Below are positions 24,106 through 43,311 of a stretch of 64,000 bases of DNA, one piece after another. The position numbers and the translations under genes were made by a program. Under the pieces are notes generated by a model, which worked only from the letters and a program-made list of their open reading frames with translations, was not told where the DNA came from and searched no databases. The stretch covers positions 62,001-126,000 of the forward strand of contig JACZWU010000006.1 of the NCBI GenBank assembly GCA_022571985.1, written 5' to 3'. Positions within the stretch are counted from its first letter, which is position 1. Every line of letters starts with the position of its first letter. Source of the stretch: Candidatus Zixiibacteriota bacterium. GTDB taxonomy: Bacteria; Zixibacteria; MSB-5A5; GN15; FEB-12.

Positions 24106-24240
24106 ATCAGCTCGTTCTCTAAATAGTGCGAGAAAAGTTAAGCGGTTTTTTAGCGTTCGGCGCTTTGATATGAAGCTGACTTACTGTATTTGGAGGGGCG
24201 AGCGCCGGTTTTTTATGAGACAGCGATAGTGCGCACATAA

Positions 24241-25266: not shown

Positions 25267-26564
25267 GCCTGCACCTCCTGTAGAATGTTATCAGCAAGAG
25301 TTTTTGCCGCCTGCAGCAGCACTTGGCGGCTGTGGGCTGCGGAAATAAAACAGACTTCGTAACCAGACGGAGGAAAATAAAGTCCTGCCTCTAACAGTCG
25401 CTGGTGGATGCGATTATATCGAGAAATAGCCTCGGCCTTGATGTCATGAGCCGCCCGGGGCAGGTCGGGCTGGAAAACCAGCCAGAATATCGAAGCTACC
25501 CCCGCCATATTTATCGAGCTGTCATCCAAATTGGAAATAACCTCACTGACAAATAGTCGATTTTTTTCTTCAAGTTCGGCGTGGATACGGCCGTCCTCCA
25601 ATTTTTTTAGAGTTGCAAGACCGGCCACCATCGCAATCGGATTTCCCGATAAAGTGCCCGCCTGGTAGACAGGACCCAATGGCGCCAGCAGCTGCATAAT
25701 ATCTTTGCGGCCGCCAAAAGAACCGACCGGCATGCCGCCGCCAATAATCTTTCCGTATGTCACCAAATCAGGAAGGATACGGTAATACGCCGCCGCTCCT
25801 TTGAGACCAACTCGAAAACCGCTGATCACTTCATCTAAAATAAGTAAGGCACCATGTTTCTCGGTGAGAGTGCGAAGCAACTGCATATATTCATGTCGCT
25901 GAATAAGCAGACCGTTGTTTGCCGGAATTCCTTCGATGATTACGGCAGCAAGGCTGTCACCATGCTGAGCCATGAATTTCTCTAAGGCATCGCCGTCGTC
26001 CAATGGAAGGACGGCAGTCTGACTTGCCACCGCCGCCGGAACGCCATCTGATGATGGCTGTCCAAAGGTGGCTGCTCCGGAGCCGGCGCTGACCAGCATT
26101 GCATCACAGTGCCCATGATAGCAGCCTTCGAATTTCAAAATCAAGTCCCGCCCGGTAAACCCGCGGGCAAGTCTGATGGCTGACATTACAGCTTCTGTTC
26201 CCGAGGAGACAAAACGAATCCTCTCCACGGCATCGACAGCGTTAACAATAAATGAAGCCAGCTGATACTCAAGTTCTGTGCAGGCGCCATAGGTCATGCC
26301 GCGCTCTATTTGATTCTTTACGGCCTCTACCACATCGGGGTCGTTATGTCCCAGAATCAGTGGTCCCCATGAGCAGCAAAAATCAAGATAGCGATTACCA
26401 TCTACATCAATAAGATAGGCACCTTCACCCTTTTCAATGAAGCGCGCAGTACCGTCGACAGATTTAAAAGAACGTACCGGTGAGTTTACCCCGCCCGGCA
26501 TTACCTGGCAGGCCAGGTCCATAAGTCGCCTGGACTTTATCGTATCACGAACAGATCCATTCAT
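25257..26564 (-). CDS. hemL: Glutamate-1-semialdehyde 2,1-aminomutase
   Basis: The 435-aa PLP enzyme has the lysine K272 in LVTYGKIIGGGMPVGSFGG and the HemL-typical N-terminus VMPGGVNSPVRSFKSVDG. ISGFRVGLKGAAAYY and RFVSSGTEAVMSAIRLARG are also diagnostic. It converts glutamate-1-semialdehyde to 5-aminolevulinate, the second step of the C5 route that begins with HemA. It starts inside the 3' end of hemB (20-nt overlap), indicating coupled translation. Confidence 0.97.
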   Translation of the reverse strand: MNGSVRDTIKSRRLMDLACQVMPGGVNSPVRSFKSVDGTARFIEKGEGAYLIDVDGNRYLDFCCSWGPLILGHNDPDVVEAVKNQIERGMTYGACTELEYQLASFIVNAVDAVERIRFVSSGTEAVMSAIRLARGFTGRDLILKFEGCYHGHCDAMLVSAGSGAATFGQPSSDGVPAAVASQTAVLPLDDGDALEKFMAQHGDSLAAVIIEGIPANNGLLIQRHEYMQLLRTLTEKHGALLILDEVISGFRVGLKGAAAYYRILPDLVTYGKIIGGGMPVGSFGGRKDIMQLLAPLGPVYQAGTLSGNPIAMVAGLATLKKLEDGRIHAELEEKNRLFVSEVISNLDDSSINMAGVASIFWLVFQPDLPRAAHDIKAEAISRYNRIHQRLLEAGLYFPPSGYEVCFISAAHSRQVLLQAAKTLADNILQEVQACA

Positions 26565-27525
26565 TTTTCAATATATCCCTCAGGTGATAGGTGATTATTA
26601 TTTTTGCACCGGCTCGGGTGATGGCAGTAAGATTCTCCAGCACCATCTGTTTTTCGTCTGCAAATCCCGCTTGGGCCAGAAACTTTACAGAGGCATATTC
26701 GCCGGAGACGTTGTAGGCCGCCACCGGAAGTTTCGTGTGACGCTTGAAATCCGAAATTATATCCAGATAGGCCAGTGCCGGCTTGACCATAACGATGTCG
26801 GCCCCCTCGCTTTCATCAAGCGCTAGTTCCCGCAACGCCTCAGAGCGATTGCGAAAATCCATCTGATAACCTTTTCGGTCTCCTTTTCCCGGTGCTGAAT
26901 TGGCTGCTTCCCGGAACGGGCCGTAATACGATGAAGCATATTTAGCTGTGTAGGCCATAATGATCGTCTTTGTCAGCTGCTTTGATTCCAGTGCCTTGCG
27001 AATGGCGCCAATGCGGCCATCCATCATATCGGAGGGAGCGACGCAGTCAGACCCTGATTCCGCCAGGGCAACGGCCATGTTCGCAAGAAGTTCGACCGAA
27101 CTGTCGTTGTCGACTTCATCTTCCTTTATGATTCCGCAGTGGCCGCTATCGGTATAGGCGCACAAACAAACATCGCTGCTCACAAATAGCTCATCACCAA
27201 ACTCTTTTTTCAAAAGTCGCGTTGCACGCAGAACCGGATTTTTATCATCCATCGCAGACGCCGCCGCCGGATCTTTCCTGTCGGTTACTCCAAACAACAT
27301 TACCTTTTTAATACCCATCTTCATATCTTCAGCAATCGTTTTTACGAGCGAATCAACCGATTCGCGAAATATCCCGGATAATCCGGGAATTTCGGTACGT
27401 ACCTTGGTTCCGTCAGTAACGAAATAGGGTTGAATAAGATGGTCTATATGTAAAGAGCTTTCAAAAACCAGACCTCTAATTAAGGGAGTTCGCCTGAGTC
27501 GGCGCGGTCGCTCATTAAGATTCAT
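26545..27525 (-). CDS. hemB: Delta-aminolevulinic acid dehydratase (porphobilinogen synthase), zinc type
   Basis: The 326-aa enzyme has the three zinc-binding cysteines C120, C122 and C130 in DVCLCAYTDSGHCG, so it belongs to the Zn-site class and not the Mg-only class. The active-site lysines are in YTAKYASSYYGPFREA and VMVKPALAYLD. It condenses two 5-aminolevulinates to porphobilinogen. It overlaps hemD by 4 nt upstream and hemL by 20 nt downstream. Confidence 0.97.
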   Translation of the reverse strand: MNLNERPRRLRRTPLIRGLVFESSLHIDHLIQPYFVTDGTKVRTEIPGLSGIFRESVDSLVKTIAEDMKMGIKKVMLFGVTDRKDPAAASAMDDKNPVLRATRLLKKEFGDELFVSSDVCLCAYTDSGHCGIIKEDEVDNDSSVELLANMAVALAESGSDCVAPSDMMDGRIGAIRKALESKQLTKTIIMAYTAKYASSYYGPFREAANSAPGKGDRKGYQMDFRNRSEALRELALDESEGADIVMVKPALAYLDIISDFKRHTKLPVAAYNVSGEYASVKFLAQAGFADEKQMVLENLTAITRAGAKIIITYHLRDILKNEWICS

Positions 27526-28223
27526 GACAAATGCTCCATGACGTGGTCAATGTCAGGCTTTTCCATAATTGTGTAGCGCGACCAGCCCAGTGATGCCATC
27601 GTCGAGGCAGTAGCGTGACCGATTGCGATTGGTTTTGCCAGAGGTTTTCCAAATTGGTGTTGATAGGCGGAGATTGTAGATGGAGCGGTAAACAGGATAT
27701 AGTCGTCCGGCGACAGAGCTGTGACTAACTCACTGTCAATTTTCCGTTCCATCGTTTTGTAGCAGATTGCTGCGTAGTAATCGAAATGTTTAGCACTAAA
27801 GACAGTCACCGGGTCATAATTGACCTGCAAGGCCCGTGCGTAGATGATAGTTTCGTCACCATTGGCTATAGTCTGATCGAATTCCTCGAATAGTTTTTTT
27901 CCATAAGATTTCGTGGGCACAAAGTTAGCCGACCGTCCATACAGCTGTAAAGTCAGGTCTGTTTTATTAGCGATGGCACCGATTCGTACTTCATTCGGTA
28001 ATGTCAGCTTTAGTTGAATGAGTCGCTCGAAAAAAGAAACGACGCCGGAGCTGCTGGTAAAAAAGAGCCAGTCTATTTTTTCAGTTGAAAGTTGTGCCGG
28101 CCATTCAAACGCCAGGTGGCAAATCTCGATTACAGGCAGCGGAATTATATCGATGCCGCGAGAAGCAGCCAGCGGCTGAATTGTGTCCAGTTGACTGGCA
28201 CTTCTGGTAATCCCTAAGCGCAT
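27522..28223 (-). CDS. hemD: Uroporphyrinogen-III synthase
   Basis: HemD is poorly conserved in sequence. The 233-aa length, the two-domain alternation, LFFTSSSGVVSFFERL near residue 53, YILFTAPSTISAYQHQFG near 173 and IAIGHATASTMASLGW near 197 all fit the family. It closes and flips ring D of hydroxymethylbilane. Its position between hemC and hemB, overlapping both (10 and 4 nt), strongly supports the call. Confidence 0.9.
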   Translation of the reverse strand: MRLGITRSASQLDTIQPLAASRGIDIIPLPVIEICHLAFEWPAQLSTEKIDWLFFTSSSGVVSFFERLIQLKLTLPNEVRIGAIANKTDLTLQLYGRSANFVPTKSYGKKLFEEFDQTIANGDETIIYARALQVNYDPVTVFSAKHFDYYAAICYKTMERKIDSELVTALSPDDYILFTAPSTISAYQHQFGKPLAKPIAIGHATASTMASLGWSRYTIMEKPDIDHVMEHLS

Positions 28224-29140
28224 GATTTTACCTTTTCATTAAGACCGGCGTAGGCCCGATTTACCAACTGCTGCACATCCGTACCATTGACATCTATCCG
28301 TTTTGGTTCTGCCCATTTATCTCCGTCACGAATCCCGAGTACAGCTTTGAGGCGATGATGTTTTTCATTCGTCTCGGAATAAACTCCCAGCGGAAGTGAG
28401 CAGCCGGCATTGAATAATTTTAGTAGTCCTCGTTCAAGCGCTGACTCCAGTGAAGCGGTCTCCGAATTCAAAGGTGAGATAATTTTTTCGACATCTAAAT
28501 CATTTGATCTTATTTGAATTCCCAGCATTCCCTGAGCAGGCGCCGGTAGAAATTTCTGTGAATCAAGCAGCACGGTAACGAATTCAGAAAGGTCAAGGTC
28601 TAAGCGCTTTACTCCTGCGGCAGCAATCAAAATAGCATCGTAATGACCGTTTCGAAGTTTGGCAATTCTGGTAGGAACATTGCCGCGCAAATCTTTTACA
28701 TTCAAAGTCGGATTGTGATATACTATCTGGAATTTTCGACGGAGAGAGCTGGTACCAATAATGCCTCCCGGTTTTACCGGTAAAAGCCCGTGAGTAATCT
28801 CTGACCCTTTTTTTATCAAAAGTATCTCTCTTCTATCTGTGCGGTAACCCACCGCTCCAAGCTTCAGGCCTCGGGGCTGTGTTGTCATGACGTCCTTTAG
28901 CGAATGTACAGCTGCGTCAATCTCACCTTGGAGCAGAGCCTCCTCCAGTTCCTTAGTGAAATAGCCTGTTCCTTCCATCATCTCAAAGGGCATTTCCTTA
29001 TCAAAATCTCCCCCTGTATTTATTATTTTGATTTTTATGGAACAGTTATGCACTCGTTCCAAAATCTCTTGAATGAAATTTGCCTGATACAGAGCAAGAT
29101 CAGAGCCTCTTGAACCAATGGTCAATTTTGCCCCTCTCAT
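28214..29140 (-). CDS. hemC: Porphobilinogen deaminase (hydroxymethylbilane synthase)
   Basis: The 308-aa protein begins with the family motif LTIGSRGSDLALYQANFI. It has AAVHSLKDV (about residues 77-85), the SSLRRKFQI motif and the LRGNVPTRIAKL motif. The dipyrromethane cofactor is attached at C247 (FNAGCSLPLG). It polymerises four porphobilinogens into hydroxymethylbilane. It overlaps hemA by 4 nt and hemD by 10 nt. Confidence 0.97.
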   Translation of the reverse strand: MRGAKLTIGSRGSDLALYQANFIQEILERVHNCSIKIKIINTGGDFDKEMPFEMMEGTGYFTKELEEALLQGEIDAAVHSLKDVMTTQPRGLKLGAVGYRTDRREILLIKKGSEITHGLLPVKPGGIIGTSSLRRKFQIVYHNPTLNVKDLRGNVPTRIAKLRNGHYDAILIAAAGVKRLDLDLSEFVTVLLDSQKFLPAPAQGMLGIQIRSNDLDVEKIISPLNSETASLESALERGLLKLFNAGCSLPLGVYSETNEKHHRLKAVLGIRDGDKWAEPKRIDVNGTDVQQLVNRAYAGLNEKVKSCA

Positions 29141-30405
29141 TTAGATTTCTCTTTATTAGAACTGTAACGGAATAAATTTATCTCCGGATCTAACTGAACC
29201 AGCCGATTCGAAAGCGTTTTAACCGGCTGGTAAGATGAGAAACCAATTAATTTTGTGACAAGCTGGATTACTTCATGCCGGTCTTCTTCAGGCAGAGATG
29301 TAACTTTTTTAGAGAAAAGGTCGTCGAACGCTTTTCTCGCCAATTTAATTGAGTCGCGGTGACTTTTTTGGAAAATTGGTTTAATAGAAATTTCAATTTG
29401 TTCAGCGAGATACTTGTTGACGGAATCACCTATTATTTCGCTGGCTTGGCCTGCTTCAATAAACTTCTGACGAAGATTGTTTTGCCCGCGAGATTTGAAT
29501 TGGCCTATATCAATCAGCCTGACACAGTTGTCGTTTTTGAAAACCTCGCTAAAATCCGGCGGCATGGCCAGGTCAATACAGAGTGTACAGCTGCCGCTTC
29601 TCTGTAGTCTCTTGAGGAACGAAGAATCAAAGATCGGTTTAGGAGCAGCTGTGGCCGATACTATCGCGCTTACCGGAGGCGGGTTTTTGAGAAACGACTC
29701 CAGTGAAATTGCCTTAGAATCATATCGCGCCGCCAGCTTCTCTGCCTCTGAGAGTGTTCGGTTGACAAATAATATCTTTGCAGTTAAGGATTCGGTGATA
29801 GATCTGGCCAGTTTCTCTGTCATAATCCCGGCACCAACCAGCACGATATTTGAGTTCTTTTTTGTATCGGTCCAGACTTTCAATTCTTCTGCCGCCAAAG
29901 TGGCCATTGAGAGTGTCCCTGTGCCTAAATTCGTTTCTCGCTTGACTGTTCTTGCTGCTGTCAGTGCTTCGCGAGAGATGCTATCAAGCATCTGGTCAGC
30001 CAGCCCGGAGTCCAGAGCCTCCAGGTAAGCCTGTCGGAACTGACCGGTAATCTGAGATTCTCCTATTACCAGTGACTCCAGCGATGAGACCGTTCTAAAA
30101 AGGTGTCTGATAGCATCTCTGCCGGTATATTGATAGAAGTCATTGGGGAAAAAACTGAGCTCACGTCCGTCTTTAAAGAAAAAGTCAATAATATTGTGCA
30201 ATATGCGGGTGCCCGAATTTTTTGGAGAAGCCATATAGATGAACTCTACCCTGTTGCAGGTAGATAAATAAATCAGCTCTTTAGCTCCGAGCCGGGACTT
30301 TAGCAGATGCAATTTTTTAGTCCGGCTTTCCTTATCGAGACTTAGGCGGGCAAGCAAAGGCATGTTCTGCTGCCAGATTGAGGTTCCAACTATACCGAAT
30401 TCCAT
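29137..30405 (-). CDS. hemA: Glutamyl-tRNA reductase
   Basis: With the ATG at 30405 the protein has 422 aa. A TTG 33 nt upstream is in frame but gives an N-terminus that homologues lack. The catalytic cysteine is C50 in YLSTCNRVEFIY. The NADPH domain has IVLVGAGIMTEKLARS near residue 187, and a C-terminal dimerisation helix region is present. It reduces Glu-tRNA to glutamate-1-semialdehyde, so the cell makes heme by the C5 route. hemH lies 75 nt upstream on the same strand. Confidence 0.96.
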   Translation of the reverse strand: MEFGIVGTSIWQQNMPLLARLSLDKESRTKKLHLLKSRLGAKELIYLSTCNRVEFIYMASPKNSGTRILHNIIDFFFKDGRELSFFPNDFYQYTGRDAIRHLFRTVSSLESLVIGESQITGQFRQAYLEALDSGLADQMLDSISREALTAARTVKRETNLGTGTLSMATLAAEELKVWTDTKKNSNIVLVGAGIMTEKLARSITESLTAKILFVNRTLSEAEKLAARYDSKAISLESFLKNPPPVSAIVSATAAPKPIFDSSFLKRLQRSGSCTLCIDLAMPPDFSEVFKNDNCVRLIDIGQFKSRGQNNLRQKFIEAGQASEIIGDSVNKYLAEQIEISIKPIFQKSHRDSIKLARKAFDDLFSKKVTSLPEEDRHEVIQLVTKLIGFSSYQPVKTLSNRLVQLDPEINLFRYSSNKEKSK

Positions 30406-30480
30406 CGTTAAATCTGTTCCTTTTTTCAGTTGCTTCAATTTCTAAATCTCTTATTATCTAATTTCGAATTTCCACCGTCA

Positions 30481-31593
30481 TCAATTCTTCGAAAATCCCG
30501 GTATAAACTCTGCTTCACGGTTATTCTGTAGGGGAAAATCAGAAGAAACAATTAAATCAACTGCCGTCTCAATCCAGGTTGGGTGCAGATTAAGTGAAGG
30601 GACTATAACGCATTTTTCTCCACCTGCCGCTAAAAAATCTTTTGCCCCCCGGATTCCCAATTCCTCGATTGTTTCCAGGCAGTCTGCTACAAAAGCTGGA
30701 GAAAAAATTGCCAGTTTCTTAATGCCTTTTTTCGGCAGGGTATCAAGAAGTACATCGGTGTACGGCTTTAGCCAGGGATCGCGGCCCAGACGGGATTGAA
30801 AAGAAACAGTATAACGACTGCCCGACAGCCCCAGTTCCTGTGAAATTAGTCGGGCTGTTGCATAGCAATGAGCTCGATAACAGAAGAAATTTGTCGCACC
30901 GATTTTGGTGCAGCAATCTTTATCTGCCAGACAATGCTTTCCATGAGACAGGTCAGATTTGATAATGTGTCGCTCTGGTAAACCATGGAAACTAAATAAA
31001 AAATGATCAAATTCTTCAACATCTATATTTTCTCTCGCTACATCTGCAAATGACTTAATAAACCTGGGATTATCATAAAAAAGCGGAAGTGTAGTAATAT
31101 TTGGGACGTTCCAGAATTTTGAAGCAACACGGAACACTTCTTCCATGGTGCTGCCCACTGTGGCTGAAGCGTATTGCGGATATAAGGGGAAAACGCGAAT
31201 ATTTCTAATCCCGGCAGATTGAAATTCGTCCATCGCCTGCTCTATGGAATGGCTCCCATAACGCATTGCAAGCTTAACAACAAATCGATCTGGAAATTTT
31301 CCATCGAGCCGCTTTTGAATCTTCCGTGTAAATTCTTCTCCGCATACAATGATTGGCGAGCCCTTGTCTGTCCAGATTTTGCGGTAGGCACTGGCTGATT
31401 TGGCCGGGCGAAAGGGAAGAATTATCAGGTTCAGCACGAAAGCGCGAACAAATGGGGAAATATTGAGAACTCGCGGGTCCGAGAGAAACTGCCTCAAATA
31501 TTTGCGGACTTCTTTAGTCCGCGGCGCATCAGGGGTGCCTATATTTACGAGCAATACCCCGTAGCGTGAATTCTTATAATGAGACTCAACCAT
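30481..31593 (-). CDS. hemH: Ferrochelatase with internal cysteine cluster
   Basis: The 370-aa enzyme has the catalytic histidine H203 in FSFHGLPERH and the FAPAFVADCLETIEELG-like acidic helix (SPAFVADCLETIEELG, about residues 278-293). Between them is an internal cysteine set, C221, C227, C228, C238 and C243 (HCLADKDCC and CYRAHC), typical of ferrochelatases with an internal 2Fe-2S cluster instead of a C-terminal one. It inserts Fe(II) into porphyrin. It is the first gene of the minus-strand heme unit, divergent from hemF. Confidence 0.95.
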   Translation of the reverse strand: MVESHYKNSRYGVLLVNIGTPDAPRTKEVRKYLRQFLSDPRVLNISPFVRAFVLNLIILPFRPAKSASAYRKIWTDKGSPIIVCGEEFTRKIQKRLDGKFPDRFVVKLAMRYGSHSIEQAMDEFQSAGIRNIRVFPLYPQYASATVGSTMEEVFRVASKFWNVPNITTLPLFYDNPRFIKSFADVARENIDVEEFDHFLFSFHGLPERHIIKSDLSHGKHCLADKDCCTKIGATNFFCYRAHCYATARLISQELGLSGSRYTVSFQSRLGRDPWLKPYTDVLLDTLPKKGIKKLAIFSPAFVADCLETIEELGIRGAKDFLAAGGEKCVIVPSLNLHPTWIETAVDLIVSSDFPLQNNREAEFIPGFSKN

Positions 31594-31704
31594 ACTAAAC
31601 AGACTTCATCATTTAAATAAAACTTATGCTCAAGCTATATTCTTTCGGCGACATTAATATTATCTTACAATATCAAACAGTAAATTCTAGTCTTTTCGGT
31701 TCAA

Positions 31705-31726
31705 AAATTGTCATCAAATTGTCATC
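31705..31726. promoter_or_regulatory. Tandem 11-bp repeat between divergent hemH and hemF, possible operator
   Basis: AAATTGTCATC occurs twice without a gap or mismatch, at 31705-31715 and 31716-31726. The period of about one helical turn would put two regulator contacts on one face of the DNA. It lies in the 284-nt region shared by the divergent heme units. No regulator for it is known; the role is inferred. Confidence 0.4.
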
Positions 31727-31877
31727 GAGTAATAGTATCATCTGTTTTTATAAGCCTAATAAGATTTTTCAGCTGCAACTTCCAAAATTGTGTAAGTCAA
31801 ACATCAAAAGTTTTTTCTCTTTTCGTTAAGTTTTGATTTGCAGATAAGCCAAAGTAACCCCAAATTTGAAGTATAAT

Positions 31878-32762
31878 ATGTTGTTCTCATCGCTTTATTC
31901 AGAAATGGAACTGTATATCGCAGAATTGCAAAAGACAATCTGCGACAGTCTCTTGCAGTTCGACTCAGCAATTACCCGAGATCATTCGTGGGAACGCCAG
32001 GAAGGTGGAGGTGGTCTTACAAGAGCGATAGACGATAGTACCATATTCGAAAAAGGTGGTGTCAATACTTCCAGCGTCTTCGGCAAGTTGCCAGAAGAGA
32101 TTGCCAAACAGCTAAAAGTAGAGTCGATGCAGTTCGCAGCCTGCGGCCTGTCGCTCATTTTGCATCCGCGATCGCCTCGAATTCCCAGCATACACTTGAA
32201 TGTACGCTTTTTTGAAATGGAAAATGGCGACTCCTGGTTCGGCGGTGGAACAGACTTGACCCCTTATTATCCTCATGAGGAAGATTTCGTACTATTTCAC
32301 CGGACTTTAAAACAAGCATGTGAGTCGATAATGCCCGACTCTTATGAGCAGTTTAAACGCCGCTCTGATGAATATTTTTACCTGCCACACCGAGGAGAAA
32401 TGCGGGGTATTGGAGGTATCTTCTTCGATTATCTAAGAGAGGACGACGAGAAACATTTCAAGTTGGTTCAGGAAGTAGGTAACTGTTTCTTACCTTCATA
32501 CCTGCCTATCCTCAAGCGTCGCAAGGACGAGGCTTACTCAGAGAACGACCGAGAGTTTCAGTTGATTCGGCGAGGACGGTACGTTGAATTCAATCTGCTT
32601 TATGACCGCGGGACACTGTTTGGATTGAAGTCCCACGGCCGGGTAGAATCAATTTTCATGTCATTGCCGCCAACTGTCCTTTTCCCATATGATTGGCACC
32701 CTGCCAAGGGAACTCCTCACGAACAGATGATGGAATATTATCAACCCAAAGACTGGGCTTGA
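31878..32762 (+). CDS. hemF: Oxygen-dependent coproporphyrinogen III oxidase
   Basis: The 294-aa protein (ATG at 31878; a later ATG at 31905 is also possible) has the HemF segments WERQEGGGGLTRAIDDSTIF, SIHLNVRFFE, GGGTDLTPYYPHEEDFVLFH and YLPHRGEMRGIGGIFFDYL, and the C-terminal WHPAKGTPHEQM. It decarboxylates coproporphyrinogen III using O2. It is transcribed away from the rest of the heme genes from a shared intergenic region, and so may be controlled separately. Confidence 0.96.
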   Translation: MLFSSLYSEMELYIAELQKTICDSLLQFDSAITRDHSWERQEGGGGLTRAIDDSTIFEKGGVNTSSVFGKLPEEIAKQLKVESMQFAACGLSLILHPRSPRIPSIHLNVRFFEMENGDSWFGGGTDLTPYYPHEEDFVLFHRTLKQACESIMPDSYEQFKRRSDEYFYLPHRGEMRGIGGIFFDYLREDDEKHFKLVQEVGNCFLPSYLPILKRRKDEAYSENDREFQLIRRGRYVEFNLLYDRGTLFGLKSHGRVESIFMSLPPTVLFPYDWHPAKGTPHEQMMEYYQPKDWA

Positions 32763-34249: not shown

Positions 34250-34385
34250 GGCGAATTATTATGGCGGAATAACAGGGTGAGCATGCTGAGTTTGATGTAG
34301 CAGCCAAGTCCAACGCCGATAGGATGCTCTGGCATTTGTATACGCATTAGCTTTCTTCCTGTTCCCTGGTCAGTATCTACTACTA

Positions 34386-35063
34386 TCAGTTAGATCGTTT
34401 CCCAACTTTCTTTTTGATGTCAACACGGATTCGTCGAGCGGCATCCAGGCCAATTGCCAGAGACTGTCGTTCCAGTTTTAGCATAATCGGGCCACCAAAA
34501 GGCGCGTGCTCTTTAACCAGCACTTCACTGCCAATCTTCAGTTTCAGACCAGTCAGATACCGCAGGAATTCCGGATCATGGTCGGATACTTCAACCACAC
34601 ATCCTGTTTCGCCTTCATTCACTTGGTCGAGGGGTATGCCACGGCTTAATGGCATGTTACCGTCCTTGCCCGGTATAGTATGACCGTGAGGGTCGAATTT
34701 CGGCCTTCCCAGAAAATTGAATATGCGTTCAATCAGCTTGTTACTTATGACGTGCTCAAGGACCTCGGCGTCCTCGTGTATTTCGTCCCAGGGAATATCT
34801 AACGTTTTGTTTAGAAACAGCTCTATTAACCTGTGGCGCCTAAGCAAATCTACGGCTATCCGCTGGCCTCGCTTAGTTAGCAGTACACCCTTATAAGGTT
34901 TGTGCGATAAATAGCCTTCAGCGGCAAGATGTTTCACCATGCCGCTAACCGAAGGCATTTTTACGCCCATACTCCTGGCAATATCCTTGGTAAACACCCG
35001 TTGATTCTTGCCCTGGAGCTCATACACCGTCTTTATGTAATCCTCAATGGATCTGCTTGGCAT
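34386..35063 (-). CDS. DtxR/MntR-family metal-dependent repressor
   Basis: The 225-aa protein has an N-terminal winged helix (residues ~5-60; VFTKDIARSMGVKMPSVSGMVKHL), a dimerisation and metal domain (~65-140, with RRHRLIELFL, EDAEVLEHVIS and FDPHGHTIPG giving His/Glu ligands) and a C-terminal SH3-like FeoA domain (~150-215). Members repress uptake genes when Fe(II) or Mn(II) is bound. It is divergent from the multicopper oxidase-ZIP-cupredoxin genes, 299 nt away, so it is their likely regulator (inference). Whether it senses Fe or Mn cannot be told from sequence alone. Confidence 0.93.
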   Translation of the reverse strand: MPSRSIEDYIKTVYELQGKNQRVFTKDIARSMGVKMPSVSGMVKHLAAEGYLSHKPYKGVLLTKRGQRIAVDLLRRHRLIELFLNKTLDIPWDEIHEDAEVLEHVISNKLIERIFNFLGRPKFDPHGHTIPGKDGNMPLSRGIPLDQVNEGETGCVVEVSDHDPEFLRYLTGLKLKIGSEVLVKEHAPFGGPIMLKLERQSLAIGLDAARRIRVDIKKKVGKRSN

Positions 35064-35194
35064 CTAAAATCTCGCTTCCATAGTCGCCTTATTCTATAAG
35101 CATTATACAACGAGTTTGCAGGCAGAAAAACGATTTTTTTGGATTTTATAATATAGAATTTACCGTCAAATCGTGTCGTAAGTCTTTTCAGTAA

Positions 35195-35313
35195 TTAGGG
35201 TTAGGAGTTCTTTCGATAATGATGAAGTGGCGTTCCTGGATTTGGAGAACCTAATAAGGCTTGACTATTAATGAAAATACGTTTAAGCTTCTCTTAAAGT
35301 TTGTCGAACCTAA
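35195..35313. promoter_or_regulatory. Candidate DtxR-type operator half-sites in the shared promoter region
   Basis: TTAGGGTTAGG (35195-35205), AACCTAATAAGGC (35248-35260) and AACCTAA (35307-35313) resemble the TTAGGNTAG.../...AACCTAA half-sites recognised by DtxR/IdeR proteins. They lie between the divergent repressor gene and the multicopper oxidase gene. No full palindrome of the classical operator is seen, so binding is inferred. The rest of the 299-nt region (35064-35362) has no gene. Confidence 0.35.
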
Positions 35314-35362
35314 CTATTGAAAAAGGGAATCAGAACTTTTAAAGTACTTTGCGTATAATACA

Positions 35363-36541
35363 ATGAAATCATTCCTCAAGCCAAATTCACAGATAGACCC
35401 TGTTAAACCAAGCTCAGATGGAAATTCTCGCCGTCATTTTATGCGGATTTTTGGAAGCAGCTTAGTCCTGGGAGTCAGTGGGCTAGCTTTTTCAAATGTC
35501 CATGCGGACCATGGAGCGTCATCGAATAATTCGATACCTAAAAAGTTGATGGGAGCGGTAGGACGCGTTAAGGGTGACTACCCGGAATCCTTTCTTCGCA
35601 GCTTTTATAATGGTCAGCCTGTTCCGGCAGATGCCTTGCGTAAAGCCCAGTCAGAAGGTTGGCCCAAGCCAGACGTATTTTACGAAATCCACGCTCTTGA
35701 TCGCGATATCGAGATCGCTCCCGGAATAACTTTTCCAGGCTGGACATTCGGATTAAAACGAGACGGCGACAGGGAGCTTCCTCTACAGGGTAATATTCCC
35801 GGACCGACTCTGCGTTGCCGCGAGGGGCAAGAAATACTCATCAAGTTTGTAAACCAGGGCTCCCATCCCCACACAATCCATTTCCACGGCGTCCACCGTT
35901 ACGAGTTTGACGGGGCGATGCCGGAACAGTTCGTCTCCCCGGGGCAAGAGTTCTGGTATCGCTTCAGGGCTGAGCCGTACGGTCTTCACCTCTACCATTG
36001 TCATTCGAGTCCACTTAAGCGTCACATTCACAAGGGACTCTATGGAGTTTTCATAGTCGATCCCGATCCCAGATGGGGCACGCGCACCCCGGCTGGTAAA
36101 GATTCTAAGGGCAGAATCCAGGAATACGTGATGATGATGAATGGTTTTGATACTAACTTCGACGGAGATAATGAAGTTTACAGTGTCAACACGGCTGCTT
36201 TCTATTACACCGGAGATCGGGCAATTAAAGTTAAGAAAAACGAACTTGTGCGAATCTATCTGGTTAACATAACCGAATTCGATCCCGTCAATTCGTTCCA
36301 TGTCCATGCAAACTTTTTCTATGCCATCCGCACCGGTACCAGAATTATGACCTGGGGGAATGAAGCGCATATGGAAAAGAACAAGCACCAATTCGAGTTC
36401 ACTGACACGGTTATGCTGTGCCAGGGTGAACGTACTATCATTGAAATGAAGTTTCCTCATGAAGGCATGTATATGTTTCACGCCCACCAGAGTGAGTTTG
36501 CCGAATTGGGCTGGATGGCATTTTTCATGGTCGAGGCTTAA
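35363..36541 (+). CDS. Two-domain multicopper oxidase, Tat-exported
   Basis: The 392-aa protein starts with a Tat-type signal (SRRHFMRIFG, residues 22-31). Copper motifs are HTIHFHGVH (residues 170-178), LHLYHCHSS (208-216, with the only type-1 cysteine C213), NSFHVHANFF (310-319) and MFHAHQSEF (371-379). Domain 1 thus holds a blue-copper centre, and domain 2 has HAH instead of HCH, as in type C two-domain enzymes. Such enzymes oxidise Fe(II), Mn(II), Cu(I) or organic substrates in the periplasm. Linkage to a ZIP transporter and a DtxR repressor favours a metal oxidase; that is inference. Confidence 0.88.
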   Translation: MKSFLKPNSQIDPVKPSSDGNSRRHFMRIFGSSLVLGVSGLAFSNVHADHGASSNNSIPKKLMGAVGRVKGDYPESFLRSFYNGQPVPADALRKAQSEGWPKPDVFYEIHALDRDIEIAPGITFPGWTFGLKRDGDRELPLQGNIPGPTLRCREGQEILIKFVNQGSHPHTIHFHGVHRYEFDGAMPEQFVSPGQEFWYRFRAEPYGLHLYHCHSSPLKRHIHKGLYGVFIVDPDPRWGTRTPAGKDSKGRIQEYVMMMNGFDTNFDGDNEVYSVNTAAFYYTGDRAIKVKKNELVRIYLVNITEFDPVNSFHVHANFFYAIRTGTRIMTWGNEAHMEKNKHQFEFTDTVMLCQGERTIIEMKFPHEGMYMFHAHQSEFAELGWMAFFMVEA

Positions 36542-36605
36542 AAATGAACAATAGTTTTGAAAACAAGCGTGCCAAGGAAAAGGACAACATGGACCAGGGG
36601 GACCT

Positions 36606-37823
36606 ATGAAAAAGTTCGGACTTTCTACTCTTGTCCTGGCAGTAATCCCATTCATTCTTCTTGGTGCCTTTGTGTCTTTTCTTCTCTTTCAAGATCTACG
36701 AAATGTGGCAGGTACTGAGTTCCCACCGGTAGAGGAAATCGTCTTCGAGAGGATTGTCATACAATCGGAATCTGAGACACAACACCACCTTTTTTTGGTA
36801 GATATCCGAAACGACGGTCCTGATCCAGTCACAATCGCCCAGGTGCAGGTCGATGAGGCTTATTGGTATTTTACGATGACACCCGAAGATAAGGTGCTTG
36901 GTCGTCTGCAGTCTGGCACTATAGAAATCCCTTACCACTGGACTGAAGGAGATGCCTACAATATAACTCTCCTTACTGCAAGTGGGGTTACATTTAGTCA
37001 CGAGATTTCTGTAGCTGTCGAAAGCCCTCCTATGTCAGTTCAGTACTTCAGCTTTTTTGCTCTATTAGGTTTCTATGTTGGAATCGTACCGATCATGATC
37101 GGGCTGGCCTGGTATCCATCATTACGGCGTCTTACAGTCAGCTCCTGGAACTTTATTCTCTTTCTCACGGTGGGACTACTTGTGTTCCTTGGCGTCGAAA
37201 CTGTCGTTGAGGGCATTGAGATGTCCGGCGGGGAAATGGTGGCCGAAACGTTTCACCCGGCTGTTTTGTTTTTTATCATACTGGTATCAACTTTTCTTCT
37301 TCTTCAGGTTTTTACTGAGCGTGGTCGCATCAGTTCCGGGGCACGGAGTGAGTCAGGTGGTGGGCTCACGCTCGCCTATATGGTCGCGCTCGGGATTGGA
37401 CTGCACAATTTAGGCGAGGGACTCGCCATCGGCACGGCCTACAATACAGGCGAAATTTCTCTCGGCGCTACCTTAGTAATAGGTTTCGCGCTTCATAACA
37501 CAACCGAAGGACTTGCCATTATTTCACCCCTGGCGAGACAGTCCTTCAATTTTAAACAACTAGTTAAGCATCTGATCCTTCTTGGCGTTGTAGCTGGTGC
37601 CCCAACTATTGTCGGAGCATGGCTTGGTGGTTTTGCCCCATCTTTACTTTGGGGGATTATATTCATGGCCATAGGTGCCGGAGCAATCTTTCAAGTTGTC
37701 TATTCAATAACCGCACAGATTTTTTCCCGCACGGAAAATCCGATTAACCTTTTCAACTTCACCAACTTCGCAGGCTTGATGCTTGGCTTCGGCGTCATGT
37801 TCGGCACGGCGCTGCTGGTATAG
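36606..37823 (+). CDS. ZIP-family metal transporter with an extracytoplasmic N-terminal domain
   Basis: A first membrane helix (residues ~8-30) is followed by a soluble beta-rich domain (~35-140), which is not part of standard ZIP proteins. The ZIP core then has two HNxxEG metal motifs, H267-N-L-G-E-G272 and H297-N-T-T-E-G302, in consecutive helices (GLHNLGEGLAIGT and ALHNTTEGLAI). It would carry Fe(II), Mn(II) or Zn(II) across the inner membrane. It lies 64 nt after the oxidase gene and 8 nt before the cupredoxin gene, so they are an operon. The extra domain could dock the oxidase or cupredoxin; this is a hypothesis. Confidence 0.88.
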   Translation: MKKFGLSTLVLAVIPFILLGAFVSFLLFQDLRNVAGTEFPPVEEIVFERIVIQSESETQHHLFLVDIRNDGPDPVTIAQVQVDEAYWYFTMTPEDKVLGRLQSGTIEIPYHWTEGDAYNITLLTASGVTFSHEISVAVESPPMSVQYFSFFALLGFYVGIVPIMIGLAWYPSLRRLTVSSWNFILFLTVGLLVFLGVETVVEGIEMSGGEMVAETFHPAVLFFIILVSTFLLLQVFTERGRISSGARSESGGGLTLAYMVALGIGLHNLGEGLAIGTAYNTGEISLGATLVIGFALHNTTEGLAIISPLARQSFNFKQLVKHLILLGVVAGAPTIVGAWLGGFAPSLLWGIIFMAIGAGAIFQVVYSITAQIFSRTENPINLFNFTNFAGLMLGFGVMFGTALLV

Positions 37824-37831
37824 AGCTAAAA

Positions 37832-38248
37832 ATGAGTCAAATCCAAATCAAAAGTCTACGGTATCTCATTTTAACCGTGTTAATTGCGCTGCCACTGTTC
37901 CTTGGCAACATTTTCGCTCAGCGTGGCAGTCTGGAATTTGATACCGACGTACGTACAATCATCATAACTGCAAAAGACATGAAGTTCAACCAAACAAATC
38001 CAACTTTTGAGGTGACGTCTGGAGAAGCCGTACGGATCGTATTTCGAAACGAGGATGCCGGCATGAGGCACGATCTTGTGATTGAAGATCTCGGCCTTCG
38101 TACACCTGTACTCCAACCGGGACAGGAAGCAATCATCGAATTCATAGCTCAAACAGAAGGCACATTTGAATACTTTTGTTCTATACACCCCATCTCGATG
38201 CGCGGTACTTTGCTGGTGATTAGTTCACTAATGATTGCTGGAAATTAG
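37832..38248 (+). CDS. Secreted cupredoxin (type I copper protein)
   Basis: The 138-aa protein has an N-terminal signal or anchor helix (residues ~10-28) and one cupredoxin domain. All type-1 copper ligands are visible: H80 (GMRHDL), C116, H119 and M123 (FCSIHPISM). This resembles the plastocyanin/azurin or cytochrome oxidase II-like fold and suggests one-electron transfer in the periplasm. The obvious partner is the multicopper oxidase two genes upstream. The short ending (VISSLMIAGN) follows the last strand. Confidence 0.87.
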   Translation: MSQIQIKSLRYLILTVLIALPLFLGNIFAQRGSLEFDTDVRTIIITAKDMKFNQTNPTFEVTSGEAVRIVFRNEDAGMRHDLVIEDLGLRTPVLQPGQEAIIEFIAQTEGTFEYFCSIHPISMRGTLLVISSLMIAGN

Positions 38249-38357
38249 GCTTCCCTTTTCATTTTCGAGGACAGGTTGCGCGAAACTCTCATCTTTAGCT
38301 GGGCAAGAGACAACAAATAGCGATTGTTCACATATTTAAACGTGGAGAAAACCAACA

Positions 38358-39203
38358 ATGTCCACAATTCCTTTCTTTCGATACGACAAACTTTTTCGAG
38401 TTTCATACCAAGTAATTACTTTTGTGGTAATTCTCACAGTCGGTTTATTAAGTTCTCAAGCCGCCGAGGGCAATGAAATAGTTACTGATCGTCCCGATCA
38501 AACTGAATCGAGTTCAAGTGTGAAGCCGGGGGTAGTTCAACTCGAAGTTGGATGGAGCTACACATTCGACAAATCTGCAACTGGTTTTGTTCGTACAAAC
38601 GAATTTCCACAGACGCTTGTTAGAATCGGGGCGGTTGACGGATTCGAGATTCGCTTGATTTGGAGTGGCCGGATTTGGGAGAATCCGAGCAGGTCAAAAG
38701 ACGATAGTTTTAATGGTATAGGTGACGCCGCTGTCGGTGGAAAACTTGAATTGTGGCCGGAGAAAGGATCGAGACCTGGAGCTGCGCTACTCTTTGGATT
38801 CAGCTTGCCGGTAGGGGACAATCAGTTCACCAGTGGCAAAATAAATCCGTCTGCGCGGATGAGTTTCGCAAATAAATTAACAGATATTTTATCGCTGGGA
38901 TACAATTTCGGGTTCACTTCTGTGTCGATGGAGACACTCCCCGGGCAATCACAGACCGATTATTACGGACAATATACAATAGTCCTGGGAGCCAGTCTGA
39001 GCGATAAGATAGGAGCGTTCGTGGAACTGTTTGGTGACATTCGAATTGACGATAGCGATTTACCACAACATTCCGCTGATGGCGGATTGACGTTCTCGGT
39101 AAAAGAAAATATTCAATTTGATCTTGCTGGCGGCTTTGGAATTTCTAGCTCATCGTCCGATTGGATTCTTCTGAGTGGAATTTCTATAAGGTTCCCTGAT
39201 TAG
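38358..39203 (+). CDS. Outer-membrane transporter-like beta-barrel protein (PF13557 type)
   Basis: After a signal sequence (hydrophobic residues ~16-34, cleavage near SSQA) the protein has the DRPDQTESSSSVKPG start and LEVGWSYTFDK strand typical of the MetA-pathway/transporter barrel family (PF13557). Alternating barrel strands run to the C-terminal WILLSGISIRFPD. It is the fourth gene of the metal locus, 109 nt after the cupredoxin gene, and could be the outer-membrane pore or metal-exposed partner. The family annotation in databases is often vague, so the role is inferred from context. Confidence 0.8.
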   Translation: MSTIPFFRYDKLFRVSYQVITFVVILTVGLLSSQAAEGNEIVTDRPDQTESSSSVKPGVVQLEVGWSYTFDKSATGFVRTNEFPQTLVRIGAVDGFEIRLIWSGRIWENPSRSKDDSFNGIGDAAVGGKLELWPEKGSRPGAALLFGFSLPVGDNQFTSGKINPSARMSFANKLTDILSLGYNFGFTSVSMETLPGQSQTDYYGQYTIVLGASLSDKIGAFVELFGDIRIDDSDLPQHSADGGLTFSVKENIQFDLAGGFGISSSSSDWILLSGISIRFPD

Positions 39204-39575
39204 CGGGGCGCAGCAAGTCTTTCAGTATTATCTTCAGGTCGGGTGGCTCACCTTTCAGATAGTTTCTCATCTGGCTATCCCGTTAAAACAAGATTCAATC
39301 GTTATAAGAAAATCTAACCAATTCAATAAAACGGGGGACTTGGGATACATATAGAACTACATTGTGCGATAATAACTTATGTGGAAAAAAGTGAAATGTA
39401 ACTGACAGCCTCGGAACTTGTTTGGAGTCCGAAACACTAAATTGAATCATAAAATTGATGACTCGCCGAGAACCGGGATTTCAGTTAAGGTTGACATCAT
39501 GAGTAATATAAACCACTCTGGATCAGTTAAGCATTTGGAATTACATTAGGAAGGACCCTTAATGAAAGCGAAAGT
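39204..39575. other. Gap with GGGTGGCTCACC remnant and third copy fragment of the ~95-bp repeat
   Basis: TCGGGTGGCTCACC near 39238 is a degenerate relative of the GGGTGGCCC repeats. Bases 39332-39358 (CGGGGGACTTGGGATACATA onward) match the left part of the ~95-bp repeat. AGGAAGG at about 39549-39555 looks like a ribosome site; it serves a 10-codon frame at 39562 that overlaps the kynB start. Nothing else is recognised. Confidence 0.5.
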
Positions 39576-40791: not shown

Positions 40792-43311
40792 CTACATTCC
40801 CGAATTTTTGACCATAGGCACATAACAAGGATCAGGCGGCTGTCCACTGCTTCTGAATATGAAATCAACGATGAATGTCAAGTCCAGAATATTAAAAGAA
40901 CTTCCATCTGAGTTCATATCCGCTTCTTCCGGACAAACTGCGTCCGGGCCACTACGGAATATAAAGTCAACTAAGAATGTCAGATCCAAAATATTTGCAT
41001 TAGCGCCATCATTATTAGCATCACCACGATCACCCATACAACAACTGGTTGAATCTGCCCCATCACAATTCTGATCTATACCATCATTTGGAATTTCCGG
41101 AGCGCCGGGATAGATGGTCGCATCGGTATCATCACAATCCGTATTATTTGAAACAAATTCTGGCGGAGCAGTACAAGCTTGGACACTACTTGCAGGATTG
41201 CCAAACCCATCAGAATCTGCATCATCATAGTAAGTGTTTAATACACCCTCATCTATATTGCCATCGCAGTTATCATCTATGCCATTACATACTTCTGCCG
41301 CTCCCGGATTGACATTCATATCGGTATCATCACAATCGGTATTATCTGAAACAAACCCCGAAGGCTGACTGCAAGCTTCAGTAGTCACTGCGATATTACC
41401 GAAACCATCACCATCTGAATCCTGGTAATATGTGTTCAGTACACCCTCATCTATATTGCCGTCGCAGTTATCATCTATGCCATTGCATACTTCTGCCGCT
41501 CCCGGATTGACACTGGAGTCGCCATCATTACAATCCGTACTGTCCGGAACAAAACCTGCTGGCGGACTACAGGCCTGTAGGCTGATTAAGGGGTCCCCGT
41601 ATCCATCACCATCTAAATCTGTATAGTATGTGGTGATTACTCCTTCATCTATATTACCGTCGCAGTTATCATCTATCCCATTGCATACCTCTGTTGCTCC
41701 CGGATTGACACTGGAGTCGCCATCATTACAATCCGTACTGTCCAGAACAAAATCTGGTGGCGGACTACACAGCTCTGCGCCGAGTAAGGGGTCCCCGTAT
41801 CCATCACCATCTAAATCTGCATAGTAAGTGCGAGGAAAGATAGTCGAATCATTGTCATCACAGTCAACGCAGGTAGTCCAGCCATCGTTATCCAAGTCTG
41901 GTTCGTCGAGCGTCGCAGGATTACAGTCATTGTCTACGCTGTCGCAGGTCACTTCTGCTGCTCCCGGATTGACACTGGAGTCGGCATCATTACAATCCGT
42001 ATTGTCCGGAACATAACCTGGTGGCTGACTACAGGACACTATGCTGCTTAAGGGGTCCCCGTATCCATCATTATCTATATCTAAGTAGTATGTGGCGGTG
42101 CTTAGACCTTCATCAATGTTGCCGTCACAGTTATCATCTATGTCATTGCATACTTCTACTGCACCCGGATTGACACTGGAGTCGGCATCATTACAATCCG
42201 TATTATCTGAAACATAGCCTGTCGGTTGACTGCAAGCTTGAGTATTCACTGCGATATTACCGAAACCATCACCGTCTGAATCCTGGTAATATGTGTTCAG
42301 TACGCCCTCATCGATGTTTCCATCACAGTTATCATCTACTCCGTTGCATACTTCTATAGCTCCCGGATTGACACTGGAATCAGCGTCATTACAGTCAAGG
42401 CAGGTTGACCAGCCATCGCTGTCTAAGTCAGGTTCGTCGAGCGTCGCAGGATTACAGTCGTTGTCAACGCTGTCGCAAGTCGCTTCTGCAACTCCCAGAT
42501 TGACGTCGAAATCACTGTCATTACAATCTGTATTGTCAGATACATAACCAGCAGGACAGGAGAGGAATTCAGCATGAGAAAAGAGTTCGCCATAACCATC
42601 GCCGTCAGTGTCGGCGTAGCAAGTTACACTCACCGAAATTGTCACAGTTCCCGGCGCCCCGGCTGAACCATTGAGCCCGTTCTCCCCGCCGTAACTACTT
42701 AACTTGTGATTTTCAGACCCTCCACCGTTGCCGCCAGCGCCGGCTCCTGTGCCGCCGGCCGCGGCGCCGGAAGCCCCAAATTCTTCCTTTTGGGTACTCT
42801 TGTTGACAGAATACTCAGTATCTTTACCGCTCCCACCAAGTCCGCCGGACCCTCCTGATCCTCCAACGGAATGAATCGATCCCAAAGCCAAGAGAGTTTC
42901 ATAGACAACGGTAACATCACCACCGTCGCCGCCGCCACCATGGCCGCCACCGCCGCCGCCGCCGCCTGCATGATCGTAGAAGATACCTGTAAATGATGAT
43001 ACGACCCAGAACTCGTATAAGCCTGTTAATCCATCAGCTCCGCCAAAGCCATTTTGTCCATCGGCGTTGATAGACCCTAAGTTTTGGAAAATTAGCGCAT
43101 AGATATTGAGAGGCAAGGCGCCATTTCCACCATCGCCGCCTATACCGCCATCACCGCCATATGCATCTTTTAAGTAGAGAGTGTCCCAGGCTCCGCCGCC
43201 CCCGCCGCCGTCGCCGCCAGTACCGCCGGCGCCTGCCACTCCAGCTGTTCCGGGTTGTCCATTCGTTGGAGAAGTATGGGAGCTATCACCGGATCCTCCG
43301 TTTCCGCCCAT
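40792..43311 (-). CDS. Secreted metal-binding-repeat protein with dockerin-like tail, main part (frameshifted gene)
   Basis: This is the main part of a gene whose 5' end is the separate frame at 43400-43666. The frame stays open above 43311 to about 43404 (QLFSNGFDVRVNGTLTVNGT). It begins with a very Gly-rich region (to ~residue 225) like that of surface proteins. Nine MopE-type putative metal-binding units follow, each about TDCNDxDSSVNPGAxEVCNG plus DDNCDGNIDEG, with paired cysteines and Ca-loop-like DxDxDGxG segments. The C-terminus (~residues 770-830) has two dockerin-like Ca loops, GDANNDGANANILDLTFLVD and ADMNSDGSSFNILDLTFIVD. It is probably an exported surface or matrix protein. The whole gene lies between the two 225-bp repeats. 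Confidence 0.8.
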   Translation of the reverse strand: MGGNGGSGDSSHTSPTNGQPGTAGVAGAGGTGGDGGGGGGAWDTLYLKDAYGGDGGIGGDGGNGALPLNIYALIFQNLGSINADGQNGFGGADGLTGLYEFWVVSSFTGIFYDHAGGGGGGGGHGGGGDGGDVTVVYETLLALGSIHSVGGSGGSGGLGGSGKDTEYSVNKSTQKEEFGASGAAAGGTGAGAGGNGGGSENHKLSSYGGENGLNGSAGAPGTVTISVSVTCYADTDGDGYGELFSHAEFLSCPAGYVSDNTDCNDSDFDVNLGVAEATCDSVDNDCNPATLDEPDLDSDGWSTCLDCNDADSSVNPGAIEVCNGVDDNCDGNIDEGVLNTYYQDSDGDGFGNIAVNTQACSQPTGYVSDNTDCNDADSSVNPGAVEVCNDIDDNCDGNIDEGLSTATYYLDIDNDGYGDPLSSIVSCSQPPGYVPDNTDCNDADSSVNPGAAEVTCDSVDNDCNPATLDEPDLDNDGWTTCVDCDDNDSTIFPRTYYADLDGDGYGDPLLGAELCSPPPDFVLDSTDCNDGDSSVNPGATEVCNGIDDNCDGNIDEGVITTYYTDLDGDGYGDPLISLQACSPPAGFVPDSTDCNDGDSSVNPGAAEVCNGIDDNCDGNIDEGVLNTYYQDSDGDGFGNIAVTTEACSQPSGFVSDNTDCDDTDMNVNPGAAEVCNGIDDNCDGNIDEGVLNTYYDDADSDGFGNPASSVQACTAPPEFVSNNTDCDDTDATIYPGAPEIPNDGIDQNCDGADSTSCCMGDRGDANNDGANANILDLTFLVDFIFRSGPDAVCPEEADMNSDGSSFNILDLTFIVDFIFRSSGQPPDPCYVPMVKNSGM

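Follow-up and report, generated by a model that had tools for sequence, protein, structure and literature searches.

A multicopper oxidase–ZIP cassette of Candidatus Zixiibacteriota as a candidate divalent-metal acquisition module

The cassette described here lies in a stretch of 64,000 nucleotides of Candidatus Zixiibacteriota DNA (the window), and consists of a regulator gene that faces, in this order, genes for a multicopper oxidase (MCO), a ZIP transporter, a cupredoxin and an outer-membrane barrel, all five present as open reading frames. On balance we read it as a self-contained module for divalent-metal acquisition, most likely of Mn(II) and possibly of Fe(II), that is probably horizontally mobile. 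Its core, the MCO together with a ZIP subtype that carries an extra beta-domain, is a near-obligate pair and probably an uncharacterised manganese (or iron) uptake route. The features are collected in Table 1.

Table 1. Features of the cassette (positions in the window)
Feature	Position	Strand	Basis
Whole cassette	34271..39346	.	blastn of sister-species locus L028 against window 20001-46000
DtxR/MntR-family metal-dependent repressor with FeoA (SH3-like) domain	34386..35063	-	Pfam/NCBIfam, ligand alignment, PDB neighbours
Divergent promoter region	35064..35362	.	Two AACCTAA half-sites, candidate operator
Tat-signal two-domain MCO, type 1 Cu in domain 1, complete type 2/3 cluster	35363..36541	+	Pfam, PDB matches, alignment
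Transporter of the ZIP family; membrane anchor at the N-terminus, then a periplasmic Ig-like beta-sandwich (45-134)	36606..37823	+	Pfam, AlphaFold2, Foldseek, alignment
Exported type-1 cupredoxin (His, Cys, His, Met ligands)	37832..38248	+	Pfam Cupredoxin_1, ligand check
Outer-membrane beta-barrel, Phenol_MetA_deg family	38358..39203	+	Pfam; homologues

The boundaries of the cassette come from a sister species, also of Ca. Zixiibacteriota, in which a block of 5.08 kb is 94% identical by blastn, and no similarity was found on either side of it over the 13.2 kb compared. Because this block is so well conserved and yet sits at a different place in the sister genome, it behaves as one unit. The heme genes upstream of it were rejected as members, since the shared block starts at 34271 and the heme genes of the sister species are on another contig. 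The original prediction named a lack of conserved gene order in other genomes as a ground for refutation, and a genome search did not refute it: the five-gene order is identical in the sister species and recurs in a Thermoanaerobaculia locus (L089), where a divergent regulator is followed by MCO, ZIP, cupredoxin and barrel. This repetition, and the presence of the MCO–ZIP pair in essentially every testable locus, indicate that the grouping is not due to chance.

The MCO gene is directly 5' of the ZIP gene in 83 of 86 loci, and the three non-adjacent cases are technical, being due to a second ZIP in tandem, to the edge of a contig and to an artefact of ORF calling. The pair spans over 20 phyla, bacterial as well as archaeal, and is found in genomes of roughly 1 Mb and on plasmids, some of them conjugative; among plasmid records the MCO occurs in 144 and the ZIP in 150, with matching counts in the leading genera. 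The association is specific to the beta-domain subtype, as in Deinococcota an MCO stands beside 9/9 beta-domain ZIPs versus 0/19 ordinary ZIP loci, and the ordinary ZIPs of the window's own relatives, which lack the beta-domain, have no MCO either (0/18 loci). A natural fusion of an MCO with a related ZIP exists in two Deinococcota genomes; the one in genome G111 shares 66% identity with a copy carried by a Deinococcus plasmid. Pairwise distances correlate between MCO and ZIP (r = 0.74) and between regulator and ZIP (r = 0.71), and no permutation reached values as high. A DtxR-family gene is close by in 34 of 60 full loci, the other 26 having no nearby regulator gene, and Nramp shares the locus in 10 of the 60. 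Of all these genes, MCO and ZIP alone are near-universal. The regulator occurs often, and a locus may or may not have cupredoxin, barrel and Nramp.

The MCO harbors the Pfam domains Cu-oxidase_3 and Cu-oxidase_2 behind a Tat-like N-terminal start (SRRHFM), and has 7rab and 3gdc as its best PDB matches. Its type-1 copper site is formed by H170, C213 (the single type-1 Cys), H221 and an axial L226, of which C213, H170 and H221 are invariant or nearly so among 83 homologues; all eight type-2/3 His are present, and are kept in 81-83 of the 83. A pair of cupredoxin domains, a type 1 Cu confined to the first of them and eight His for the type 2/3 cluster make it a type C two-domain MCO. It belongs neither to the CopA/CueO copper-resistance oxidases (TIGR01480 score 51 against a cut-off of 479, CueO 40 against 525) nor to the NirK copper nitrite reductases (TIGR02376 74 against 296, with the full type 2/3 His set present).

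The ZIP exceeds the cut-off of the Pfam Zip family, and its AlphaFold2 model (mean pLDDT 88.6) predicts an anchor helix (6-28), the beta-sandwich and eight transmembrane helices in a fold that matches BbZIP. The HN..E motifs of TM4 and TM5 read HNLGEG and HNTTEG, with Gly or Thr in place of the usual Pro; H267, N268, E271, N298 and E301 are invariant in the homologue alignment, and H297 is kept in 80/83. The beta-domain has a weak Foldseek similarity to PCuAC chaperones, but the alignment holds no conserved His, Cys or Met in it, so that it was rejected as copper-binding, and archaellin/FlaF/FlaG-type Ig folds match it better. A single-sequence fold of this domain alone gave a pLDDT of 50 and was left unused. 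The cupredoxin has the complete set of type-1 ligands, and homologues of the barrel occupy the equivalent position in three other loci (L089, L033 and L064).

The regulator is the sole DtxR-family gene found in the window's genome, and belongs to the DtxR/MntR family by its winged-helix, dimerisation/metal-binding and FeoA/SH3 domains (Pfam Fe_dep_repress, Fe_dep_repr_C and FeoA) as well as by its metal ligands. These are MntR-type (D8, H77, E100, E103 and H104), with Lys at the position of MntR E11, and such ligands are by themselves no proof of Mn specificity. MntR is the best NCBIfam match, though under the family cut-off, and the PDB neighbours are SloR, ScaR and MntR. At the position of the iron-type DtxR Cys, the regulators linked to MCO–ZIP have E, D or H in all 46 scorable cases, and the unlinked DtxR-family regulators of relatives have Cys in 20 of 28. 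In four relatives the same regulator class (D/N, K, H, E, E, H) is found at the head of operons that encode a ZnuA/MntC-like binding protein, and within the same bacterial family the closest relatives of the linked regulators lead operons for Mn/Zn-type ABC importers. Mn(II) is therefore favoured over Fe, given the MntR-type ligands and the metal type of the importers that the closest genomic analogues control. Of the proposal that Fe or Mn import is coupled to an oxidase, metal uptake is likely to hold, with manganese the better candidate.

The half-site AACCTAA occurs at 35248 and again at 35307; both copies resemble half of the palindrome upstream of a same-genus ABC operon with an MntR-class regulator, and they are suggestive as a candidate operator. 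No convincing palindrome like the perfect one before that operon was found in the window, and the best operator match of the intergenic region (11/16) is no better than matches elsewhere in the window.

The window's genome yielded neither an ABC-3 permease nor Nramp, and it has FeoB outside the cassette. The MCO–ZIP pair may replace such importers in some genomes, such as this one, but not in general: among 32 genomes with the pair, Nramp is also present in 20 and ABC-3 permeases in 21, so that substitution alone does not account for the module. Two genomes of about 1 Mb (L076 and L083) keep both ZIP and Nramp, which suggests that the two do different jobs.

The model proposed here is that, at low cytoplasmic Mn, the MntR-type repressor would leave the shared promoter region, the barrel would convey metal through the outer membrane and ZIP would import M2+ into the cell. 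The Tat-exported MCO would be the dedicated periplasmic partner of ZIP, probably held by its beta-sandwich, and would oxidise periplasmic metal; our best guess is that it uses O2 to clear Fe(II) (or Cu(I)) competing for ZIP. The cupredoxin may give electrons or copper to the MCO. The copper relay that the original prediction put between MCO, cupredoxin and ZIP would have to do without any conserved His, Cys or Met in the beta-domain. A doubtful variant is that the MCO, docked on the beta-domain of ZIP, acts on the very metal that is imported, oxidising Mn(II) or Fe(II) and handing it on, which would be redox selectivity of the Fet3-Ftr1 kind, separately invented, with an unrelated permease and MntR control.

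Iron uptake, in which the MCO is a ferroxidase and ZIP either imports Fe(II) or takes Fe(III) from it in a Fet3-Ftr1-like manner, is unlikely. Control by a DtxR-family protein fits it, MCOs such as Fet3p can be ferroxidases and Fe(II) is also carried by Nramp and ZIP proteins; however, the iron-type Cys never occurs in linked regulators, FeoB is encoded elsewhere in this genome and ZIPs are known for divalent ions. Detoxification is the least probable of the readings: the MCO would keep Fe(II) or Cu(I) from harming the periplasm, ZIP being linked through co-regulation only, which agrees with the frequent plasmid carriage and the metal-resistance genes that adjoin some copies. Yet an MCO without ZIP is hardly ever seen, the oxidase–ZIP fusion exists, and at high metal an MntR-class repressor would shut such a system down rather than activate it.

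It has been proposed for ammonia-oxidising archaea, where an MCO1–ZIP pair was already noted, that the pair serves copper uptake (PMC7785015 and PMC7819960, which cite Kerou 2016 for the pair); the MCO would oxidise Cu(I) to Cu(II) and ZIP would import the latter. For our cassette this is quite improbable. Some plasmid copies do lie near copper-handling genes, and according to PMC7785015, MCO1 and the adjacent ZIP permease of N. viennensis are mildly up under Cu limitation (log2 0.81 and 1.33); but this response is weak, the same source calls the N. maritimus MCO1 patterns conflicting, and the MntR class of the linked regulators, their counterparts at Mn/Zn-type ABC importers in relatives and the Nramp neighbours all speak against copper.

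The archaeal pair is nevertheless the closest known arrangement, with a two-domain MCO, a Leu axial ligand and a ZIP gene behind it, and a Nitrososphaera sp. locus (L102) has the MCO directly upstream of a beta-domain ZIP; in its 9 kb no DtxR-family match, cupredoxin or barrel was found. It differs in its copper reading, and the beta-domain is not discussed in the accessible parts of those papers. Hence the system is not wholly undescribed, as the original prediction had suggested, although for bacterial MCO–ZIP operons the searchable literature gave nothing beyond the archaeal papers, and no account turned up there of how widely the pair occurs in bacteria, of its link to a regulator, of the beta-domain or of the fusion. 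The PDB entry 3gdc, from Arthrobacter sp. FB24, is a type C two-domain MCO and so of the same family as the cassette MCO. Over 288 residues it shows 100% identity with an MCO encoded on a plasmid, at a locus where a divergent regulator accompanies the MCO and ZIP genes; its PDB molecule name carries no function. Fet3-Ftr1, FtrABCD and EfeUOB share the logic of an oxidase (or cupredoxin-like) partner plus a permease, but the cassette has a ZIP permease, an MntR-type regulator and a two-domain oxidase; no Ftr1/EfeU-type Fe(III) permease was found in the five genes and the scanned neighbours, which upholds the predicted difference from Fet3-Ftr1 and FtrABCD. MntH (Nramp) and TroABCD/SloABC under MntR/TroR have the regulator class and the probable metal in common with it, and sometimes the operon, whereas the cassette has a different transporter fold and an obligate oxidase partner.

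A two-gene oxidase–importer core is thus widespread, with no assigned bacterial function in the literature found. If the manganese reading is true, an O2-using system would join manganese homeostasis, the solved protein 3gdc would gain a role, and the copper-uptake reading of MCO1–ZIP in ammonia-oxidising archaea would be revised. The pair occurs in cultivable hosts, among them Deinococcus, Arthrobacter, Rhodococcus and Sinorhizobium.

The five genes of the original prediction were confirmed, with their positions, by checking the ORFs of the window. The minus-strand regulator belongs to the DtxR family and harbors all three of its domains (Pfam/NCBIfam profiles), and profile matches identify the plus-strand products as a two-domain multicopper oxidase (MCO), a ZIP transporter, a cupredoxin and a Phenol_MetA_deg barrel. 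The MCO has a Tat-like motif (SRRHFM) at its start, its type-1 copper ligands (H170, C213 and H221, with axial Leu226) are confined to domain 1, and eight His residues form the type 2/3 cluster. These ligands are kept in 81 to 83 of 83 aligned homologues, the axial position being Leu in 73 and Met in 9. PDB 3gdc is the MCO of an MCO-ZIP locus on plasmid 1 of Arthrobacter sp. FB24; that locus comprises a divergent regulator, MCO and ZIP.

Locations of the cassette and of related features (L-numbers, loci from other genomes or plasmids; G-numbers, other genomes)
Feature	Location	Remarks
DtxR/MntR-type regulator	window 34386-35063 (-)	
MCO	window 35363-36541 (+)	
ZIP	window 36606-37823 (+)	
Cupredoxin	window 37832-38248 (+)	
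Barrel	window 38358-39203 (+)	
Heme biosynthesis genes: amine-oxidase-family protein, HemE, class-III aminotransferase, HemH, HemF	window 22681-32762	just upstream of cassette; unlinked in sister species
839-aa protein, Gly-rich start, many DTDCND...VNPGA repeats (MopE-like)	window 40792-43311	
Exported barrel-like protein, N-terminal CxxCH	L139:5146-6363; L138:3656-4825; L030:4592-5794; L046; L062	no Pfam match
ABC-3 permease with C-terminal DtxR metal-binding/dimerisation domain	L139:8301-9614	similar long frames in G012, G017, G019, G061
ZIP-MCO fusion	L181:563-2527	G111, Deinococcota
ZIP-MCO fusion	L184:3944-5755	Deinococcus sp. KNUC1210 plasmid
Fur-like regulator, long exported protein resembling TonB-dependent receptor, ZIP	L141:4881-8407	G094; three consecutive genes, same strand

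The ZIP was modeled (AlphaFold2, 60-sequence alignment, mean pLDDT 88.6) as an anchor helix, a β-sandwich (residues 45-134) and eight transmembrane helices, with a core that matches BbZIP and bears the motifs HNLGEG and HNTTEG, the usual form being HNxPEG. Since one extra helix precedes the normal ZIP core, the β-sandwich should be periplasmic in the predicted topology. Its fold is similar to the Ig-like one of archaeal pilin/FlaF/FlaG proteins (8fk7, Foldseek E 6.4e-4; profile E 0.007), and Pro, Gln and Trp are conserved in it; because no metal-binding side chains are conserved in the alignment, the domain would appear to serve assembly or docking.

The MCO and the β-domain ZIP are a near-obligate pair. 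The ZIP alignment, run against 84,980 species genomes, retrieved at least 592 stretches, of which at least 585 are relatives; the 80 best represent over 20 bacterial and archaeal phyla. In these 80 and six plasmid loci, an MCO lies directly upstream of the ZIP in 83 of 86, and the exceptions are the second of two tandem ZIPs, the first of which has the MCO (L030), a contig start (L047) and an ORF-calling artefact where the MCO is present (L077). The ZIP occurs in 150 plasmid records and the MCO in 144, and the two counts agree in Pseudosulfitobacter, Rhodococcus, Sinorhizobium, Shinella, Sulfitobacter and Arthrobacter. As a control, 111 Deinococcota genomes show an adjoining MCO at all nine β-domain ZIPs and at none of 19 ordinary ZIP loci, not counting one partial ZIP (L155); none of the 18 ordinary ZIPs in relatives of the window has one either. 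MCO and ZIP pairwise distances are correlated (r = 0.74, n = 83; 0 of 2000 permutations as high), partly from shared organism history.

In the fusion of G111, the related ZIP part lacks the β-domain and the MCO is of another two-domain type, with an HCH motif in domain 2. It is not an assembly error, since a 66% identical copy is found on the Deinococcus plasmid, where cation-efflux and ArsR-type genes adjoin it. The ZIP of L141, 38% identical to that of the window, has neither β-domain nor MCO.

Of 60 loci whose flanks are complete, 34 have a DtxR-family gene near the pair: it is divergent in 12, upstream in the same orientation in 17, downstream in 4 and otherwise placed in 1. As 40 relatives hold 32 such genes, about one per 3-4 Mb, less than 1% would be expected by chance. 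The iron-type ligand set is that of DtxR/IdeR, and the manganese type that of MntR. All 46 scorable linked regulators carry Glu (36), Asp (5) or His (5) at the iron-type Cys position and Asp or Asn at the iron-type Met position, while unlinked DtxR proteins of relatives have the Cys in 20 of 28. The closest structures of the window's regulator are mostly Mn regulators (SloR, ScaR, MntR). Its ligand class (D/N, K, H, E, E, H) also occurs in four unlinked proteins of relatives. The one in G002 is encoded by the first gene of a complete operon, followed by a heme-motif barrel, a ZnuA/MntC-like binding protein, an ATPase and two ABC-3 permeases; in G001, G006 and G020 the regulator is accompanied by the binding protein, these loci being partly truncated where contigs end. 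The ABC operons of G001 and G002 share a promoter palindrome, ATTATTTAGG-N4-CCTAAATAAT, perfect in G002. In Acidobacteria (L059, L061, L073, L075, L080, L104, L045), where regulator and MCO are divergent, a near-perfect palindrome, ATTTTGA-N4-TCAAAAT, lies next to the promoter in the DNA between them and is a candidate operator. The permease of L139 would be a transporter that carries its own metal sensor domain.

Several phyla have loci in which the ZIP is followed by a member of the same cupredoxin family, whose ligands His, Cys, His and Met are conserved. The Phenol_MetA_deg barrel is also present in L033, L064 and L089; L089 (Thermoanaerobaculia) has the exact gene order of the cassette, which is thus conserved elsewhere. 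In Planctomycetota, the CxxCH barrel-like protein comes after the cupredoxin of MCO-ZIP-cupredoxin loci, and its Zixibacteria homologue (43% identical) lies between regulator and importer in Mn/Zn-type ABC operons. As barrels recur in both settings, outer-membrane proteins would be recurrent partners of the regulon.

The sister-species locus (JACZXB010000010, L028; Candidatus Zixiibacteriota, as is the window genome) is similar to the window only within 34271-39346, at 94% identity, non-coding DNA included, and the heme genes are on another contig of the sister genome (85% identity). The cassette is therefore one unit at differing genomic places. It is closer to its sister copy than are these genes and metH (90%), which suggests recent horizontal movement, slower evolution being possible instead. 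Among 98 genomes searched, only the window genome and this sister have a full-length copy of the window ZIP.

The cassette's regulator is the single DtxR-family gene of the window genome (97.6% complete), in which FeoB is present, and ABC-3 permease and Nramp were not found. Nramp lies within 10 of 60 MCO-ZIP loci, some of which belong to genomes near 1 Mb in size. A regulator-MCO-ZIP-Nramp cluster is kept in small genomes (0.9-1.3 Mb) of archaea and Patescibacteria (L066, L076, L083, L092), an O2-dependent oxidase being surprising in such putative symbionts. Taken together, regulator ligands, ABC-operon relatives, importer content, Nramp linkage and closest structures favour Mn(II) as the cargo, Fe(II) being the main alternative. 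Copper has been proposed as well: in two reports (PMC7785015, PMC7819960), an MCO1 gene adjoining a ZIP permease in ammonia-oxidising archaea is tentatively assigned to copper uptake, and locus L102 shows the Nitrososphaera pair to be the same system. The original prediction was right in its observation of the cassette and partly right in its reading of it: metal uptake is the likely role, with Mn now ahead of Fe, and "undescribed" does not hold for the archaeal pair. For the bacterial operon, regulator link, ZIP β-domain and fusion, no description was found in the searchable literature, which covers few subscription papers, and their novelty is provisional.

In the proposed working, low Mn would make the repressor let go, M2+ would enter through barrel and ZIP, and the MCO would act in the periplasm alongside the ZIP. 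As to why an importer of M2+ would need an oxidase, the preferred answer is that the MCO would clear Fe(II) or Cu(I) that compete with the cargo; a bolder one is that it would oxidise the cargo metal itself. Mn-oxidising P. putida, with intracellular Mn above that of non-oxidising mutants, is a related precedent, but its oxidases are different (PMC3798386). The system is best classed with metal-uptake systems that have an oxidase partner, Mn being a likelier cargo than Fe or Cu.
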